Source: Rhodospira trueperi (GTDB lineage: Bacteria; Pseudomonadota; Alphaproteobacteria; Rhodospirillales; Rhodospirillaceae). From it: a stretch of DNA of 64,000 nucleotides. The stretch's first letter is position 1. Every line of letters begins with the position of its first letter. A model generated the notes under the pieces. The model did no database searches. It was not told the DNA's origin and was given only the letters and a program-made list of their open reading frames with translations. The stretch spans positions 62,001 through 126,000 of the forward strand of contig NZ_FNAP01000005.1 in the NCBI RefSeq assembly GCF_900101965.1, written 5' to 3'. Below, piece after piece: positions 1-54,384 of the stretch. The translations under genes and the position numbers were made by a program.

Positions 1-58
1 GCTCTAAAGCTCATCCCCGGCGCGGCGCGCCATCCGTCCGTTGCGCGAGGTACGGCCC

Positions 59-1846
59 ATGAGCCCCGTTCCGCCAACACCACCGCCACCTCCCTTGCTC
101 CGGGCCGCCGTGCCGGGCGCGGTGATGCTGAGCGTTGTCAGCGGTGCACGCGCTCTGGCGGAGGTTCCTCCCGACGCCGTGATTGAAGCCCGTGTGGTCG
201 AGGTCGCGCGGGGCGGGCGGTTGGCGGTTCTGCAAACCGATCTGGGGACCCTTGAGGTGCGCTCCACGCAGCCGCTGCGGGCCGGGAGTACGCTGTCGAT
301 CTCCCTGATGTCCGTGGGCTCTGACACGGCGGCGCTCCGGGTCGCCGCCCTCAACGGACAGCCCCTGCCGCCCATCGGGACGGGACCCGCCGGGACCGTC
401 GGGCCCGGACAGGGGGGCGCCGCTGCTCCGGGGACGCCGGGCGCGGGGAGCGGGGTCGGGACAGGAGCCGCCGTGCAGGTGGGACAGGGCAGTCCGGGAC
501 GGGGACTCCTGATCGCGACCGTTCTGGGCGGGTCCACCGGCGAGACCCAGCTGCCGGTCGGATCCCGACTGGCGGTTCAGGTGCTGTCCATTCAGCCACC
601 GGGCCAGGGGGCGGGAGCGGTGCCGAATGTGGGAGGCGGTTCCGGCGCGGGACCGGCGCCTGGAGGCGCCGCAGCACCGCCCCTCACGCCCGGAGCGACC
701 GCGCCCGGGACGGCGGCGCCGGGTGGAGCACCGGGAGCGGTGCCTTCGTCTGCCCCAGCACCCTCCCCAACGGCGTCCCCAACGGCGTCCCCAACGGCGT
801 CCCCGACTGCCGCCCAGGCCGGCGGCGCGCCACCGGGCGGCGTCTGGGGTGTGGGCAGCGGCGCGCGTTTCGGAACGCCGTCCGGCGTGTCGTCTGGCGC
901 GGCGTCGGCCGCGACACAGGCGGATACCCCGGGTCCGCCGAGCCGACTGACCGGCGCGCTCGCGCCTTCGCCGGGACCGTCGCAGAGTCTGGTTCGAACG
1001 CCGGCCGGGACGCTGGCGTTGCCGGTGCGCCTGGAGGCCCCGGCGGGCAGTCAGGTGATGCTCGCGGTGCGCTCGTTCGTTCCCCCGACGGGGGCGGCGG
1101 GGGTGCCGGCCGTCGGCGCGGCGCTGCCGCAGGGCGGCGTCCAGGGCTGGCCGGTTCTGACCGAGGCTCTAGAGACCCTGACCCGGGCCGATCCGGCGGC
1201 GGCGCGGGCGCTTGAGGCGGCGATTCCTCGGCCCGGCCCCCAGCTTGCCGGGGCGATGGTGTCGCTCGCGGGCGCGTTGCGGTCCGGCGGAGACAGCCGG
1301 CTGTGGCCCGGGGACGCGACCCTTCGCGCGCTGGAGCGGACAGGGCCAACCGGCGCCCGCGCGGCCGTGGCCTTGCGCCGGGATCTGGCCGATCTGGCCA
1401 CCCAGGTGCGCGAAAGCGCGGGCGGTGAATGGCGGGCCTTCACGCTGCCGTTTTCCGATCAGGCCGAAATCAGCGCCATCACGGTGATCCTTCGGATCAT
1501 CGGCGGTCGTGGGGACCGGCACGAGGACGAGTCCGGCGCGCGCGAGGGGGAGGGCGGCGACGGCCAGCGGTTCCTGATCGATGTGATGTTGTCGCGGCTG
1601 GGACGGTTGCAGATCGACGGCTTGATGGAACAGCCGGCGCGCCGACTGCGCCTGATCCTGCGTACCGCCGCGCCGTTGCCGGCCGCGCTGCGGGGCGATC
1701 TGACCCGGATCACTGTCCGCAGCCTGGAGGCCTTCGGTCTCGAAGGGGGGCTGACCTTCCGGGAGGATGGCGCCTTTTTCGAGCCGGTTCCGCTGCCGCC
1801 GGACGATGACGCGACGGGGGCGCCTCCCGGTGGGGTGATCGCCTGA
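59..1846 (+). CDS. FliK-like, Ala/Gly/Pro-rich protein (possible flagellar hook-length control)
   Basis: A 595-residue protein in three parts. Residues about 25-110 form a compact beta-rich N-terminal domain. A very long Gly/Ala/Pro/Ser/Thr-rich linker follows to about residue 320, with four tandem SPTA repeats. The C-terminal part (about 490-580) has the 'LSRLGRLQIDG' and 'ITVRSLEAFGLEGG' pattern. FliK hook-length proteins share this plan: a disordered ruler region followed by a C-terminal domain with an 'LG-v-v' strand. The assignment rests on architecture and weak motif resemblance only; no flagellar gene is visible next to it, as the window begins here. The ATG at 59 is preferred over an in-frame TTG at 41 because a GCGAGG ribosome site lies about 8 nt before it. 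It could instead be an unrelated low-complexity protein. Confidence 0.4.
   Translation: MSPVPPTPPPPPLLRAAVPGAVMLSVVSGARALAEVPPDAVIEARVVEVARGGRLAVLQTDLGTLEVRSTQPLRAGSTLSISLMSVGSDTAALRVAALNGQPLPPIGTGPAGTVGPGQGGAAAPGTPGAGSGVGTGAAVQVGQGSPGRGLLIATVLGGSTGETQLPVGSRLAVQVLSIQPPGQGAGAVPNVGGGSGAGPAPGGAAAPPLTPGATAPGTAAPGGAPGAVPSSAPAPSPTASPTASPTASPTAAQAGGAPPGGVWGVGSGARFGTPSGVSSGAASAATQADTPGPPSRLTGALAPSPGPSQSLVRTPAGTLALPVRLEAPAGSQVMLAVRSFVPPTGAAGVPAVGAALPQGGVQGWPVLTEALETLTRADPAAARALEAAIPRPGPQLAGAMVSLAGALRSGGDSRLWPGDATLRALERTGPTGARAAVALRRDLADLATQVRESAGGEWRAFTLPFSDQAEISAITVILRIIGGRGDRHEDESGAREGEGGDGQRFLIDVMLSRLGRLQIDGLMEQPARRLRLILRTAAPLPAALRGDLTRITVRSLEAFGLEGGLTFREDGAFFEPVPLPPDDDATGAPPGGVIA
764..811 (+). repeat. 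Four tandem 12-nt units encoding SPTA repeats
   Basis: Three exact copies of TCCCCAACGGCG and one diverged copy run head to tail inside the FliK-like gene. They encode consecutive Ser-Pro-Thr-Ala units in the linker. Whole units can be gained or lost without a frameshift, so linker length may vary between strains. Confidence 0.85.
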
Positions 1847-47952: not shown

Positions 47953-49056
47953 GTGACCGCCGTCATGCCCCCCGGGGCCGAACGCTTCGAAATCGCTCAT
48001 CCCGGCCGTTACTGGGACCGCCTGGACGATGGCCGCGTCGAGTGCCGGGTCTGCCCGCGTCGCTGCCGGGTGCGCGAGGGCGGGCGCGGCCTGTGCTTCG
48101 TGCGCGGGGTGCAGGACGGCGAGATGGTGCTCACCACCTACGGCCGTTCCTCCGGGTTCTGCGTCGATCCGATCGAGAAGAAGCCGCTCAACCACTTCCT
48201 GCCGGGCACGCCGATTCTGTCGTTCGGCACGGCGGGCTGCAACCTGACCTGCAAGTTCTGCCAGAACTGGGAGATCAGCAAGGCCCGCGAGTGGGAGCGC
48301 CTGAACGCCGCCGTCTCGCCCGAGCAGATCGCGGCGGCGGCGGCCGAGTTGGACTGCCGCTCGGTCGCCTTCACCTACAACGATCCGGTCATCTTCCTGG
48401 AATACGCCGTCGACACCGCCATCGCCTGCCGCGAACGCGGGATCAAGACCGTGGCCGTGACCGCCGGCTATATCGAGCCGGAGGCCCGCGCCGAGTTCTT
48501 CCGTCCCATGGACGCCGCCAACGTGGACCTGAAGGCGTTCACCGAGGATTTCTATCATAAGCTCTCGACGGCGCATCTGGATCCGGTGCTGGACACGCTC
48601 CGCTATCTGAAGCACGAGACCGACGTGTGGGTCGAGATCACGACGCTGCTGATCCCGACCAGGAACGACAGCGACGACGAACTGAAGGCCTTGGCCGACT
48701 GGGTGGTGGCGGAACTGGGGCCGGACGTGCCGCTGCACTTCTCGGCCTTCCACCCCGACCACAAGATGCGCGACCTGCCGCCGACCCCGCCGTCGACGCT
48801 GCGCCAGGCGCGGGAGATCGCCCGCGCCGCCGGGGTGCATCACGTCTACACCGGTAATGTGCACGACAGCGACGGCGGCAGCACCTATTGCCCCGGCTGC
48901 GGGACGCGGGTGATCGAGCGCGACTGGTACGAACTGGGCGCGTGGCACCTGAATGAGGTGGGGCACTGCCTGTCCTGCGGCACCCGGCTGGCCGGCGTGT
49001 TCGACGGCCCGCCCGGCACCTGGGGCCGGCGGCGGGCGCCGGTGCGGTTTCGGTGA
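47953..49056 (+). CDS. AmmeMemoRadiSam-system radical SAM enzyme
   Basis: A 367-residue radical SAM protein. An N-terminal Cys cluster ('CRVCPRRCRVREGGRGLCFVR') resembles that of pyruvate-formate-lyase-activating enzymes. The SAM cluster motif is 'GCNLTCKFCQNW' (C-x3-C-x2-C), with 'SVAFTYNDPVIFLEYAVD' and 'NVDLKAFTEDFYHKL' downstream. Two C-terminal zinc-ribbon-like pairs ('CPGCG' and 'CLSCG') are present. The family is named for its usual partners AmmeMemoRadiSam proteins A and B; neither is here, and the reaction is not established. The GTG at 47953 has GAGG 8 nt upstream. It follows mutY closely and may be cotranscribed. Confidence 0.88.
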   Translation: MTAVMPPGAERFEIAHPGRYWDRLDDGRVECRVCPRRCRVREGGRGLCFVRGVQDGEMVLTTYGRSSGFCVDPIEKKPLNHFLPGTPILSFGTAGCNLTCKFCQNWEISKAREWERLNAAVSPEQIAAAAAELDCRSVAFTYNDPVIFLEYAVDTAIACRERGIKTVAVTAGYIEPEARAEFFRPMDAANVDLKAFTEDFYHKLSTAHLDPVLDTLRYLKHETDVWVEITTLLIPTRNDSDDELKALADWVVAELGPDVPLHFSAFHPDHKMRDLPPTPPSTLRQAREIARAAGVHHVYTGNVHDSDGGSTYCPGCGTRVIERDWYELGAWHLNEVGHCLSCGTRLAGVFDGPPGTWGRRRAPVRFR

Positions 49057-49067
49057 GGGTGGGGGCG

Positions 49068-50342
49068 ATGGCCAGACGCCTTCTCACGGAAGAGTTCATC
49101 GATAGCCTTGAGCCGCCAGAGAAGGGTGAGATCTGGATTGCGGATACCAGGATCAGAGGGTTCGGTGTTCGGTTGTGGGCGTCGGGGCATTCGGGCGGCA
49201 AGGCGTATTGTGTTCGAACCACGGACACCAATGGTCGGTCGGTTCGAAAGACATATGCTCCCTGGGACGGGGCATTTGGAACGTGGTTCATGCGCAGTCT
49301 TAATCTCGGTGATGTAAGGGTCAATGAAAACGGTGCCTTTCCTTTGTCTGCGTTCTTGAAAGATGCCCGGGAATGGGCCGAGGTGGAAATAGCCCGTTTG
49401 AAAGGGCGATTACCAAGCCTTGAGGAACAGAAGCAACTGGACGAAGAGCGCCAACGCGTCCGCGACGAGGGGCGGGCACGAATTGAGGCCCTTTCGCTCC
49501 GGAGTTTGGTGGAAGAGGTTCTTGATCCGAACCGTTCTCACGGATGGAGCGAAGCGTATCGCGACAGGCTCCGGCATGCCTTCAACCAGTTCGACCCGAC
49601 GGACGAGATTAGATCGCGGTGCATCCGTGAGCTATTGGACGACGCCTCTTCAAATGACAAGATTCCGCCTAGTATATCATCAGGCAATTTTCGGCTGCTG
49701 AAGTCGTTTTTCAACGCAATGGACACCTACTCATTTGGGATTGGCGGCCCTCACGTAGGCCGTATATTGCTAAGCAGACTGAAATACAATGAACAACGAC
49801 GGGAAAAAGCGAAAGACTTCGTTGATGAGCTTGAGATCGAGGACGTCGAGCGGCTCCTCAAGGCCTTGCCTGGTCTCGACGTGGATTGGCGCGCGGCCCG
49901 GTGCATAGAAGCGTGCTTTCAATTCCGGGCTCCTGTATCGCGGGTTATGGGGGGCCGATGGTCAGAAATCGTGGATGGGTATTGGGTGCCATATAGCCCA
50001 GCCGAGCGGAAAAATTGGCATTTTTATTTGGAGCGCATTGATCAGCAGGCGTTCGAGTGTCTCAAGGCCGCGCGCCAGAATGCCTTGGACGAGGGCGTGC
50101 AGTCCATGTTTTGGTTTCCGAACAAGGAAAACCCTGAAGTTCCAATAAATAATATTGATCGCGCCTGGAATAAGCTGCTTTCTGTTGTTGGGTGGCCCAG
50201 AGTCAGCCTTTCGAATGCGGCGAAAACGTACAAACAGCGATACTCTTTCCTGGAGTGGCCTGACCCAGAAAAGAACGAGGTTATCAGGAAAGAGATCTTA
50301 ACCTGGAATTCTGTATTGATGTATAAGAAAAGAGGTGGGTAG
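49068..50342 (+). CDS. Tyrosine-recombinase-like protein with apparently lost active site
   Basis: A 424-residue protein resembling phage/island integrases. The N-terminus looks like an arm-DNA-binding domain ('LTEEFIDSLEPPEKGEIWIADTRIRGFGVRLWASG'). A middle helical region (about 145-240) could be the core-binding domain. The part 'EIEDVERLLKALPGL' to 'GGRWSEIVDGYWVPYS' (about 258-310) looks like the start of an integrase catalytic domain. However, the usual 'G-x-R' position appears as Pro289, and the 'H-x-x-R' box region reads 'VSLSNAAKTYKQR'. A tyrosine near the end (Y419) remains. GC content and codon use are clearly lower than in neighbours, suggesting transfer. The ATG at 49068 has GGTGGGGG upstream; a GTG at 49053 overlaps the preceding stop. 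Confidence 0.5.
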   Translation: MARRLLTEEFIDSLEPPEKGEIWIADTRIRGFGVRLWASGHSGGKAYCVRTTDTNGRSVRKTYAPWDGAFGTWFMRSLNLGDVRVNENGAFPLSAFLKDAREWAEVEIARLKGRLPSLEEQKQLDEERQRVRDEGRARIEALSLRSLVEEVLDPNRSHGWSEAYRDRLRHAFNQFDPTDEIRSRCIRELLDDASSNDKIPPSISSGNFRLLKSFFNAMDTYSFGIGGPHVGRILLSRLKYNEQRREKAKDFVDELEIEDVERLLKALPGLDVDWRAARCIEACFQFRAPVSRVMGGRWSEIVDGYWVPYSPAERKNWHFYLERIDQQAFECLKAARQNALDEGVQSMFWFPNKENPEVPINNIDRAWNKLLSVVGWPRVSLSNAAKTYKQRYSFLEWPDPEKNEVIRKEILTWNSVLMYKKRGG

Positions 50343-50644
50343 GTTTTATTGCAGCCCAACCTTTTTTTTGGCCGGCAAGTGCAGTCTGTCATCGCCGGAT
50401 CGGGTGGTGAGACAGTCTCATTGAAATATGGCAAAATTGTCCAAGGCTTGCGGAAACCGCCTGAAAACTGCCTGAAAACCGCGTTTCTCCTGGAACGTAA
50501 CGTATTGAGATTCAATAAGATAGAGTCGAGCGCAGCTGATTCTTGCGATTTTCATCGCTTGTCGCCGACCCGGCGGCGGTGGATAGTGCTTCCAGAACGG
50601 CCGTTCTTCCGAAAACACAACCCAGAAATGGAAGGACCAATGAA
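50343..50644. other. AT-richer non-coding stretch of the islet
   Basis: The 302 bases between the recombinase-like gene and the small HTH gene have lower GC than the genome average, with a T8 run (50363-50370) shortly after the stop codon. No reading frame resembles a known protein. I found no clear flanking direct repeat that would define attachment sites. Confidence 0.5.
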
Positions 50645-50815
50645 ATGAAACATCTGTCCATCGCCGAGATCGCGGTCATCAAGGCGCGGATCGCGCGGGG
50701 TGACAAGTACCACGATATTGCGTCGGACTACCGCATCAACCAGGGGCGCCTGTCCGACCTGAAGTACGGGCGCATCTTCGCCGAGGTGCGGCCCGCCGTG
50801 TTGGAACCGGCATAA
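50645..50815 (+). CDS. Small helix-turn-helix protein
   Basis: A 56-residue protein, nearly all helix-turn-helix: 'IAEIAVIKARIARGDKYHDIASDYRINQGRLSDLKYGRIFAEV'. The second helix of the turn, 'NQGRLSDLKYG', is the likely recognition helix. It resembles the minimal HTH of resolvase/transposase-like or phage regulatory proteins. The ATG at 50645 has GGAAGGA upstream, a good ribosome site. GC content returns to the genomic norm within it, so it may be native rather than part of the islet. Its function is unknown; a role as a small DNA-binding regulator is inferred. Confidence 0.6.
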   Translation: MKHLSIAEIAVIKARIARGDKYHDIASDYRINQGRLSDLKYGRIFAEVRPAVLEPA

Positions 50816-50895: not shown

Positions 50896-51465
50896 TCACC
50901 CCTCCCAGGTGAACCACGCCGGGAGGTCGCGGAGCCTGGGCTGGCGGCCGTCTCTCTCCGACAGCACGGGCACGTCGAGCCCCGGCGGTAACGGCCAGGT
51001 GATGTCCAGGTCGGGGTCGTTCCAGGCGAGTCCCTTGTCACAGTCGGGGGCATACGGGTTGGTGACTTTGTAGTGCACCTCGGTGTCCGGCTCCAGCGTC
51101 AGGAAGCCTTGGGCGAAGCCCGCCGGCACCAGGATTTGGTTCCATTCGACCGCGCTGATGATGGCGCCGACCCACTGTCCGAACGTGGGCGAGCCCGCGC
51201 GGATATCCACGGCGACATCGAACACCGCGCCCCTGACCACCCGCACCAGTTTGTCCTGGGCCATGGGTGGGATCTGGACGTGCAGGCCGCGCAGCGTGCC
51301 CGGTGTCGTGGACAGTGAATGATTGTCCTGCACGAAATCCAGGTGGATGCCGGCGGCGGTCAAGGCCGTCCTGCTGTAGGTCTCGGAGAAAAAACCGCGA
51401 TGATCGGCGACCTTTTTCGGTCGGATGATCTTGACGTCCGGGATTGCCAGCGCCTCGACCTGCAT
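50896..51465 (-). CDS. rfbC: dTDP-4-dehydrorhamnose 3,5-epimerase
   Basis: A 189-residue cupin epimerase for dTDP-L-rhamnose synthesis. Signatures include 'DHRGFFSETYSRTALTAAGI', 'FVQDNHSLSTTPGTLRGLHVQIPPMAQDKLVRVVRGAVFDVAVDIR' with the catalytic His in 'LRGLHVQ', and 'VPAGFAQGFLTLEPDTEVHYKVTNPYAPDCDKGLAWNDPDLDI'. Length is typical. The ATG has GGGGAGGG upstream. It is divergent from rfbB, with 143 bp between the two starts. Confidence 0.95.
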   Translation of the reverse strand: MQVEALAIPDVKIIRPKKVADHRGFFSETYSRTALTAAGIHLDFVQDNHSLSTTPGTLRGLHVQIPPMAQDKLVRVVRGAVFDVAVDIRAGSPTFGQWVGAIISAVEWNQILVPAGFAQGFLTLEPDTEVHYKVTNPYAPDCDKGLAWNDPDLDITWPLPPGLDVPVLSERDGRQPRLRDLPAWFTWEG

Positions 51466-53545: not shown

Positions 53546-53932
53546 TCAAACCCGCCGAATCGGTCCCGGATACGCGGCGACCTGAGGATCGGCCGTCAGC
53601 AGTTCAATCCCCTCAGTCATCGCTTGAGCCACCAGCAGACGGTCGAAGGGGTCCTTGTGGAGCGGCGGGAGGTCGGCCACGGCCAAGACATGGGCGCCGA
53701 CAATCGCCATTTCCTCATAACCATTCTCCAACAGGCCGTGTCGCAGCGCCCGGGCATCGACATCGAAGTCTGGCCGCCCAAGCGCTTGCTTGATCACAAC
53801 TTCCCAGAGGCTGGCGACGCTGTAGACGGGCGTCTCCGCCGGGTCGTCGATCAGCGCGCGGGCCTCGGCTGGCAGACGCTCGGAGTCCGCCGCAGCCCAC
53901 AACAGGATGTGGGTGTCGAGAAGCCGCTTCAT
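53546..53932 (-). CDS. PIN-domain toxin (VapC-like ribonuclease)
   Basis: A 128-residue PIN-domain protein, the toxin of a type II toxin-antitoxin pair. Acidic metal-binding residues are visible in 'LLDTHILLWAAADSERL' (first Asp), 'SVASLWEVVIKQALGR' (Glu), and 'HKDPFDRLLVAQAMTEGIELLTAD' (Asp pair). These chelate Mg2+ for RNA cleavage. It overlaps the antitoxin gene by 4 nt (ATGA), antitoxin first, the standard order. It is convergent with rfbD. Confidence 0.9.
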   Translation of the reverse strand: MKRLLDTHILLWAAADSERLPAEARALIDDPAETPVYSVASLWEVVIKQALGRPDFDVDARALRHGLLENGYEEMAIVGAHVLAVADLPPLHKDPFDRLLVAQAMTEGIELLTADPQVAAYPGPIRRV

Positions 53933-54174
53933 GCCTCGTCGCCGAACAGGGCGGCGATGCTATCCGCCCCCAGTTGATCGAAATCGTCGGGCACCTGGAT
54001 GCGCCCGGCCAGGAAGCCGATCCGGCGGGCCTTGCTCGGGTCTGGAGCGTCCAGGGCCATGACCTTCACCATCGGTTTGCCCGCTTTGGCGATGATGAAC
54101 GACTCTCCGCCCGCCGCCTGCTCGACCAAGCGGGACAGATGCGTTTTGGCCTCGTGGATGTTGACGGTGCGCAT
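53929..54174 (-). CDS. Phd/YefM family antitoxin
   Basis: An 81-residue antitoxin. The N-terminal DNA-binding region is typical of Phd/YefM: 'RTVNIHEAKTHLSRLVEQAAGGESFIIAKAGKPMVKVMAL'. The C-terminal ~35 residues ('RRIGFLAGRIQVPDDFDQLGADSIAALFGDEA') would wrap the PIN toxin. It represses its own operon and neutralises the toxin encoded next. The ATG at 54174 has GGGAG upstream; the frame is open further 5' without homology. Confidence 0.9.
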   Translation of the reverse strand: MRTVNIHEAKTHLSRLVEQAAGGESFIIAKAGKPMVKVMALDAPDPSKARRIGFLAGRIQVPDDFDQLGADSIAALFGDEA

Positions 54175-54384
54175 GGGGGGCTCCCGGGAACGATTCGGCG
54201 ATCTCGTTGACCCTAGTTCGATGAACTTAGTCCGGCGCGTGCGGCAAGGCAACCGCGCCCGCTTCCCGGTGGGGACGTGCGGTCGCCGCAATCGAGGCCG
54301 ACGCAGGCCGTTGATCCCGCGAGGGCGCGTTCCTACCCTTTTAAGGAGAGATATTGCCCGCCCCTCCGGCCACGGGAGCCCCGC

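Follow-up and report, generated by a model that had tools for sequence, protein, structure and literature searches.

The window, by which we mean the whole 64,000-nucleotide stretch of Rhodospira trueperi DNA analyzed here, harbors a two-gene islet located between a radical SAM gene and rfbC (Table 1). The first gene encodes an integrase-like protein and is complete, with zero internal stops, and the second encodes a small helix-turn-helix (HTH) protein on the same strand. GC content falls to 48-55% over 49.25-50.75 kb, compared with about 65-75% in the flanking DNA, and GC3 of the integrase-like ORF is 0.60, against 0.75-0.92 in five neighboring genes; GC3 of the HTH gene is host-like (0.875). 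Across the related elements described below, the GC content of the integrase genes lies about 10-18 points under that of the surrounding DNA. The original prediction had described a lower-GC islet with a complete gene, free of internal stops and of a codon style unlike that of its neighbors, and all of this agrees with the values found here. It had also placed the gene at 49068-50644. That start is correct, but the gene stops at 50342, and position 50644 lies one base before the HTH gene, which had been missed together with the conserved palindrome upstream of it.

Table 1. Position within the window of the islet, its parts, and the flanking genes
Feature	Position	Strand	Remarks
Radical SAM gene, left flank	47953..49056	+	Synteny with five congeneric genomes stops at its stop codon
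Integrase-like protein, apparently catalytically dead tyrosine-recombinase homologue (family A7), 424 aa	49068..50342	+	
N-terminal arm-type DNA-binding domain (predicted), residues 1-65	49068..49262	+	Homology and VIA-align
Degenerate catalytic domain (predicted), residues 246-398	49803..50261	+	VIA-align Z 12-13; pLDDT mostly 81-92
Codon of Pro289, which occupies the Arg I position; a conserved Arg292 follows three residues later	49932..49934	+	Pro in 5/5 members
Ala385 codon, HxxR arginine position	50220..50222	+	Ala/Ser in every member reaching the position
Probable operator, the perfect palindrome GAACGGCCGTTC, 50 bp before the start codon of the HTH gene	50595..50606	.	Exact in 4/5 elements
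56-aa helix-turn-helix protein, conserved partner gene	50645..50815	+	70-77% identity among elements; three-helix HTH model
dTDP-4-dehydrorhamnose 3,5-epimerase gene rfbC, right flank, convergent with the islet	50896..51465	-	

The 300-bp spacer between the two genes of the islet contains an 11-bp repeat in two tandem copies (AAACCGCCTGA/AAACTGCCTGA; positions 50454-50475), and the predicted RNA structure of the spacer is unremarkable (z = -1.4). Three kilobases from the islet, at 53546-54195 on the minus strand, two ORFs assigned by Pfam, one with a PIN domain and the other for a Phd/YefM antitoxin, probably form a type II toxin-antitoxin pair.

Fold and active site of the integrase-like protein

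Single-sequence searches with the 424-aa protein gave no match in Pfam, NCBIfam, PHROGs, PADLOC, or PDB sequences, so that the family resemblance is visible only by profile or fold. The first 65 residues match, in the same order, the arm domains of true integrases and are 40-54% identical to the remaining family members, one of which matches Pfam Arm-DNA-bind_3 at 4.4e-5. Alignment of the family profile with six intact integrases by hhalign extended from the arm through the catalytic domain (99.5% probability, E = 1.2e-22). We then analyzed an AlphaFold model built from the family alignment (mean pLDDT 71.5, with the catalytic domain mostly at 81-92). In VIA-align, its arm domain (model range 5..115) matched those of the HPI integrase (3jtz; Z = 8.9) and of a P4-like integrase (3rmp; Z = 8.4), and its catalytic domain matched the Staphylococcus aureus integrase 3nkh (Z = 13.3, rmsd 3.0, 143 aligned) and lambda Int (Z = 12.9), with XerH as a further match (Z of 12-13). 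Foldseek with the whole model scored weaker (best E = 2.5e-3, lambda Int), as expected for a multidomain model with low-confidence linkers. The presence of the N-terminal arm-binding domain corresponds to the architecture of arm-domain (P4/lambda-type) integrases, and the profile and the model together support a tyrosine-recombinase fold with an arm domain. The integrase resemblance noticed in the original prediction is thus confirmed by the profile match and by both the arm and the catalytic fold matches.

We examined the catalytic residues in one alignment of the family members with six intact control integrases from related genomes. At the Arg I position, all five members have a proline (Pro289 in the window) and all six controls an arginine; a conserved Ser/Thr-Arg follows this proline in the family, and three positions past Arg I, the acidic residue of the controls is an arginine in 5/5 members (Arg292). 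The HxxR arginine (Arg II), present in the intact controls, is an alanine in the window protein (Ala385) and in L003 and a serine in L002, L028, and L046. The LGH...Tyr module that carries the nucleophile is missing across the family. The catalytic arginine and the HxxR box had been predicted to be replaced by Pro289 and 'VSLSNAAKTYKQR', and in the alignment Pro289 indeed falls on Arg I, and Ala385 on the HxxR arginine. The terminal tyrosine supposed to be the only catalytic residue kept does not hold up, as Tyr419 has no counterpart in any relative. The model and the integrase alignment, which had been suggested as a check, hence revealed a recombinase fold with no intact catalytic set. These data support a tyrosine-recombinase homologue in which the Tyr module and both catalytic arginines, Arg I and Arg II, are gone in all members that could be checked. 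With Arg II and the Tyr module lost, the family is unlikely to have recombinase activity.

An HTH partner gene and its candidate operator

An HTH protein of 55-58 aa adjoins every element copy with intact flanks. Homologues of 70-77% identity lie beside the dead integrase, each time on the same strand, in L025, L026, L028, and L046, and the HTH gene is present at 4/4 of the integrase-found loci with complete flanks; at the fifth, in G470, the contig ends before the HTH position. The HTH profile was made from the copies beside the integrase, making L046 the only blind case, and there an integrase remnant was found next to the HTH copy. All the strong matches of the profile adjoin the dead integrase or its remnant, and none of 22 weaker homologues has a dead integrase within 1.5 kb (tblastn). 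The HTH gene is downstream of the integrase in the window and upstream in L025 (9369-10842), the only copy with the inverted order and also one without the palindrome described below; this permutation would be compatible with a circular intermediate.

The model of the HTH protein is a three-helix HTH (pLDDT 91), and the best structural matches to it, whose E-values are all weak, are for the most part HTH proteins that bind DNA. No Pfam model matched the two element HTHs that were scanned. A broad alphaproteobacterial family of solo HTH proteins of 55-65 aa (L032-L044) shows the motif IKxRxxxGxxxxxIAADYxxNxGRISEI. These solo proteins belong to the same protein family as the partner HTH and are 35-45% identical to it but, unlike it, they are neither accompanied by a dead integrase nor preceded by GAACGGCCGTTC.

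In the window, L026, L028, and L046 (4/5 copies), the HTH start is preceded at 44-50 bp by the perfect 12-bp palindrome GAACGGCCGTTC, which is missing from L025. Between copies, the 12-mer is 100% identical, whereas identity is about at chance level on either side of it, at 18-38% over 50 bp upstream and 19-38% over 26 bp downstream. The 8.8-Mb G682 genome has a single palindrome of this sequence, inside the element, and G740, G037, G000, and G019 have 3, 2, 5, and 0, respectively. The conservation of an exact palindrome amid chance-level DNA, together with its rarity in the host genomes, makes GAACGGCCGTTC a strong candidate for the operator of the HTH gene. The other sites inspected in the host genomes are mostly inside ORFs (inspection covered four of the five G000 sites), which does not suggest a wider regulon.

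Distribution, selection, and insertion sites

Within the scope of the searches, A7 is a rare alphaproteobacterial family of five loci and one remnant. Besides the window copy, the members are an intact copy in G019 (L003/L025), frameshifted copies in G037 (L002/L026) and Bradyrhizobium valentinum (L028), a copy cut by the contig end in G470 (L016), and a C-terminal integrase remnant in another Bradyrhizobium genome (L046). The family was uncovered by profile searches: scanning genome contigs with the full protein yielded none, and scanning them with the arm-domain alignment yielded one new locus, that of B. valentinum. A phylum-wide sample of 388 genomes contained no further full-length member, giving short matches only, mostly to the arm domain. 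No close relative was detected in viral contigs, plasmids, and phages, where the single match was to the arm domain of a Pseudomonas phage integrase, and PADLOC gave no match for the module.

With two frameshifts among the five dead integrases and one further copy reduced to a remnant, the integrase-like gene appears to be lost often. Across the same elements, its product is also far less conserved than the HTH protein (26-30% versus 70-77% identity), and this faster divergence suggests that the target of the recombinase may change between hosts. The two Bradyrhizobium copies were compared over 69 codons of the dead C-terminal catalytic domain, giving a dN of 0.075 and a dS of about 2 for this one pair, whose dS approaches saturation and whose members have both been broken since; the stretch replacing the HxxR box is identical between them. 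The low dN relative to dS indicates that, in this pair, the dead catalytic domain was under strong purifying selection, which would have retained the protein after catalysis was lost. Together with the conserved proline substitution and the constant pairing with a conserved HTH gene, this supports a recombinase that was repurposed rather than rotting. A dead recombinase repurposed as a DNA-binding protein had been proposed originally; its first two elements stand, and DNA binding is a likely property judging from the fold.

We then looked into the genomic surroundings of the elements and found that they occupy unrelated intergenic sites. The L025 element is beside uvrB, the L026 element follows an acyl-CoA dehydrogenase gene and precedes a HigBA-type pair, the G470 element lies about 24 bp after mfd, and both Bradyrhizobium elements are located behind the same carboxylase gene. 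In G683 (L059), the closest relative of B. valentinum, the carboxylase gene and the neighboring gene are adjacent and the element is absent, and L068 and L071 are element-free counterparts for L046. More generally, the DNA behind the carboxylase gene in Bradyrhizobium relatives (L059-L072) is strain variable and contains unrelated ORFs, resembling a local insertion hotspot. The empty-site comparison advised in the original prediction thus gave element-free counterparts in Bradyrhizobium. In the genus of the window, where each of the five congeners departs from the window immediately past the stop codon of the radical SAM gene, it yielded no clean empty site. In the nearest congener, G002 (L020), the radical SAM gene is followed by other DNA, part of it seemingly of lower GC (by eye), and the site downstream of this gene may also be a variable one. 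No convincing att-like direct repeats flank the window islet and exact ends were found for none of the copies, so that mobility is deduced only from the scattered sites and the low GC. No other phage or integrative and conjugative element (ICE) gene was seen beside any copy, and ORF tables covering 15-20 kb at the relatives, read by eye, showed no phage genes.

Possible function and relation to known systems

Starting from what sequences and models document, namely, homology and fold, catalytic loss throughout the family, constant pairing, a conserved palindrome, unrelated sites, and purifying selection in one pair, we consider that the region at 49.06-50.82 kb is probably a horizontally acquired two-gene DNA-binding or regulatory islet, in which a recombinase has turned into a noncatalytic binder. 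We propose that the first gene derives from a P4/lambda-type integrase and that Arg I, Arg II, and the nucleophile module were lost in the common ancestor of the family, the gene being retained for a non-cleaving DNA-binding protein made of the arm domain and the catalytic-domain fold. The HTH protein would dimerize on the GAACGGCCGTTC palindrome preceding its gene and control transcription of the module. In vivo, the dead recombinase would sit on recombinase-type sites without cutting them and act as a repressor or a competitor, directed at the element itself or at related mobile elements entering the cell, so that the output would be repression or exclusion. Spread of the element would be helped by the machinery of another element. 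More tentatively, these copies may belong to a hitherto undescribed alphaproteobacterial family of minimal islets of two genes. The dead descendant of an arm-domain integrase and the tiny HTH protein, which would have a palindromic operator of its own, would then constitute a switch or exclusion device that relocates among unrelated intergenic sites via recombination machinery borrowed from another element.

Dead tyrosine recombinases are already known as transcription factors from SPbeta-like phages. MrpR (YopR), the master repressor of Bacillus phage SPbeta, has a recombinase fold, has lost recombination, and was shown to bind DNA and to repress, without recombining, via a repeated operator; its authors suspect that such recruitment of recombinases is more widespread (PMC10516654). 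MrpR and SroF of phi3T (the latter known from a PDB title) share with the window protein the recombinase fold and the loss of catalytic residues including Arg I, and VIA-align of the window model gave Z scores of 8.5 to YopR and 9.3 to SroF. However, the window protein is structurally nearer to lambda-type integrases (Z of about 13), it has an N-terminal arm domain that is absent from the MrpR architecture, which consists of a core-binding and a catalytic domain (PMC10516654), and it has lost the Tyr module, which MrpR keeps (Tyr304). Moreover, MrpR controls prophage lysogeny, whereas the window islet consists of two genes between housekeeping genes, with no prophage, and its family, unlike MrpR, has the 56-aa HTH partner gene. 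Given the arm domain, the nonprophage setting, and the partner gene, the window family is separate from MrpR and would work like MrpR/SroF at most by analogy. It would then be a separate case of such recruitment, in an arm-domain integrase lineage of Gram-negative bacteria and outside a prophage. A two-gene module, a 12-bp palindrome, intact copies in two genomes, and element-free relatives form a test set at hand, which could show what a recombinase does after recombining stops and how lone two-gene islets spread.

We weighed three other explanations. The islet could be the decaying remnant of an integrative element, an integrase and an excisionase/directionality factor left after cargo loss, with the integrase decayed by drift. 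An integrase and a small HTH protein form the classical int-xis pair, which the module resembles, and the low GC and the frameshifts or truncations of several copies would fit decay as well. We nevertheless regard this as unlikely, since the same substitutions are present in every family member in unrelated backgrounds, the dead domain appears to have evolved under purifying selection, the HTH protein and the palindrome are nearly invariant, and other phage or ICE genes were not seen beside any copy. Alternatively, the islet could serve specifically in antiphage defense or exclusion, in which case the dead integrase would bind incoming mobile DNA at att or regulatory sites and would be restrained by the HTH protein. 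The much faster divergence of the integrase-like protein, the position of lone low-GC genes in variable intergenic sites, and the HigBA-type toxin-antitoxin pair next to one copy are in line with this explanation, which we nonetheless find quite improbable, as the module has no PADLOC match and a phage target was not identified.

Finally, a still-active recombinase with a rewired active site, in which Arg292 replaces Arg I, another residue acts as the nucleophile, and the islet moves by itself, would account for the conservation of Arg292, the unrelated sites, and the permuted gene order in L025 and has precedents for a relocated Arg I in IntCTnDOT and IntDes (PMC8138268), but is very improbable, such cryptic activity through Arg292 being disfavored because Arg II (Ala/Ser throughout) and the LGH...Tyr module are lost too, no C-terminal Tyr is conserved, and target-site repeats were not seen in the window. 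P4/lambda-type integrases have in common with the window protein the arm domain, the core-binding region, and the catalytic-domain fold but differ from it in having Arg I, Arg II, and the LGH...Tyr module. Compared with IntDes, taken from its description (PMC8138268), and IntCTnDOT, the window family has also lost the second Arg and the nucleophile module. The IntDes subgroup has a shifted first Arg and a Tyr in place of the first His (PMC8138268); like the window family, it shows a perturbed box I in which an arginine is displaced.
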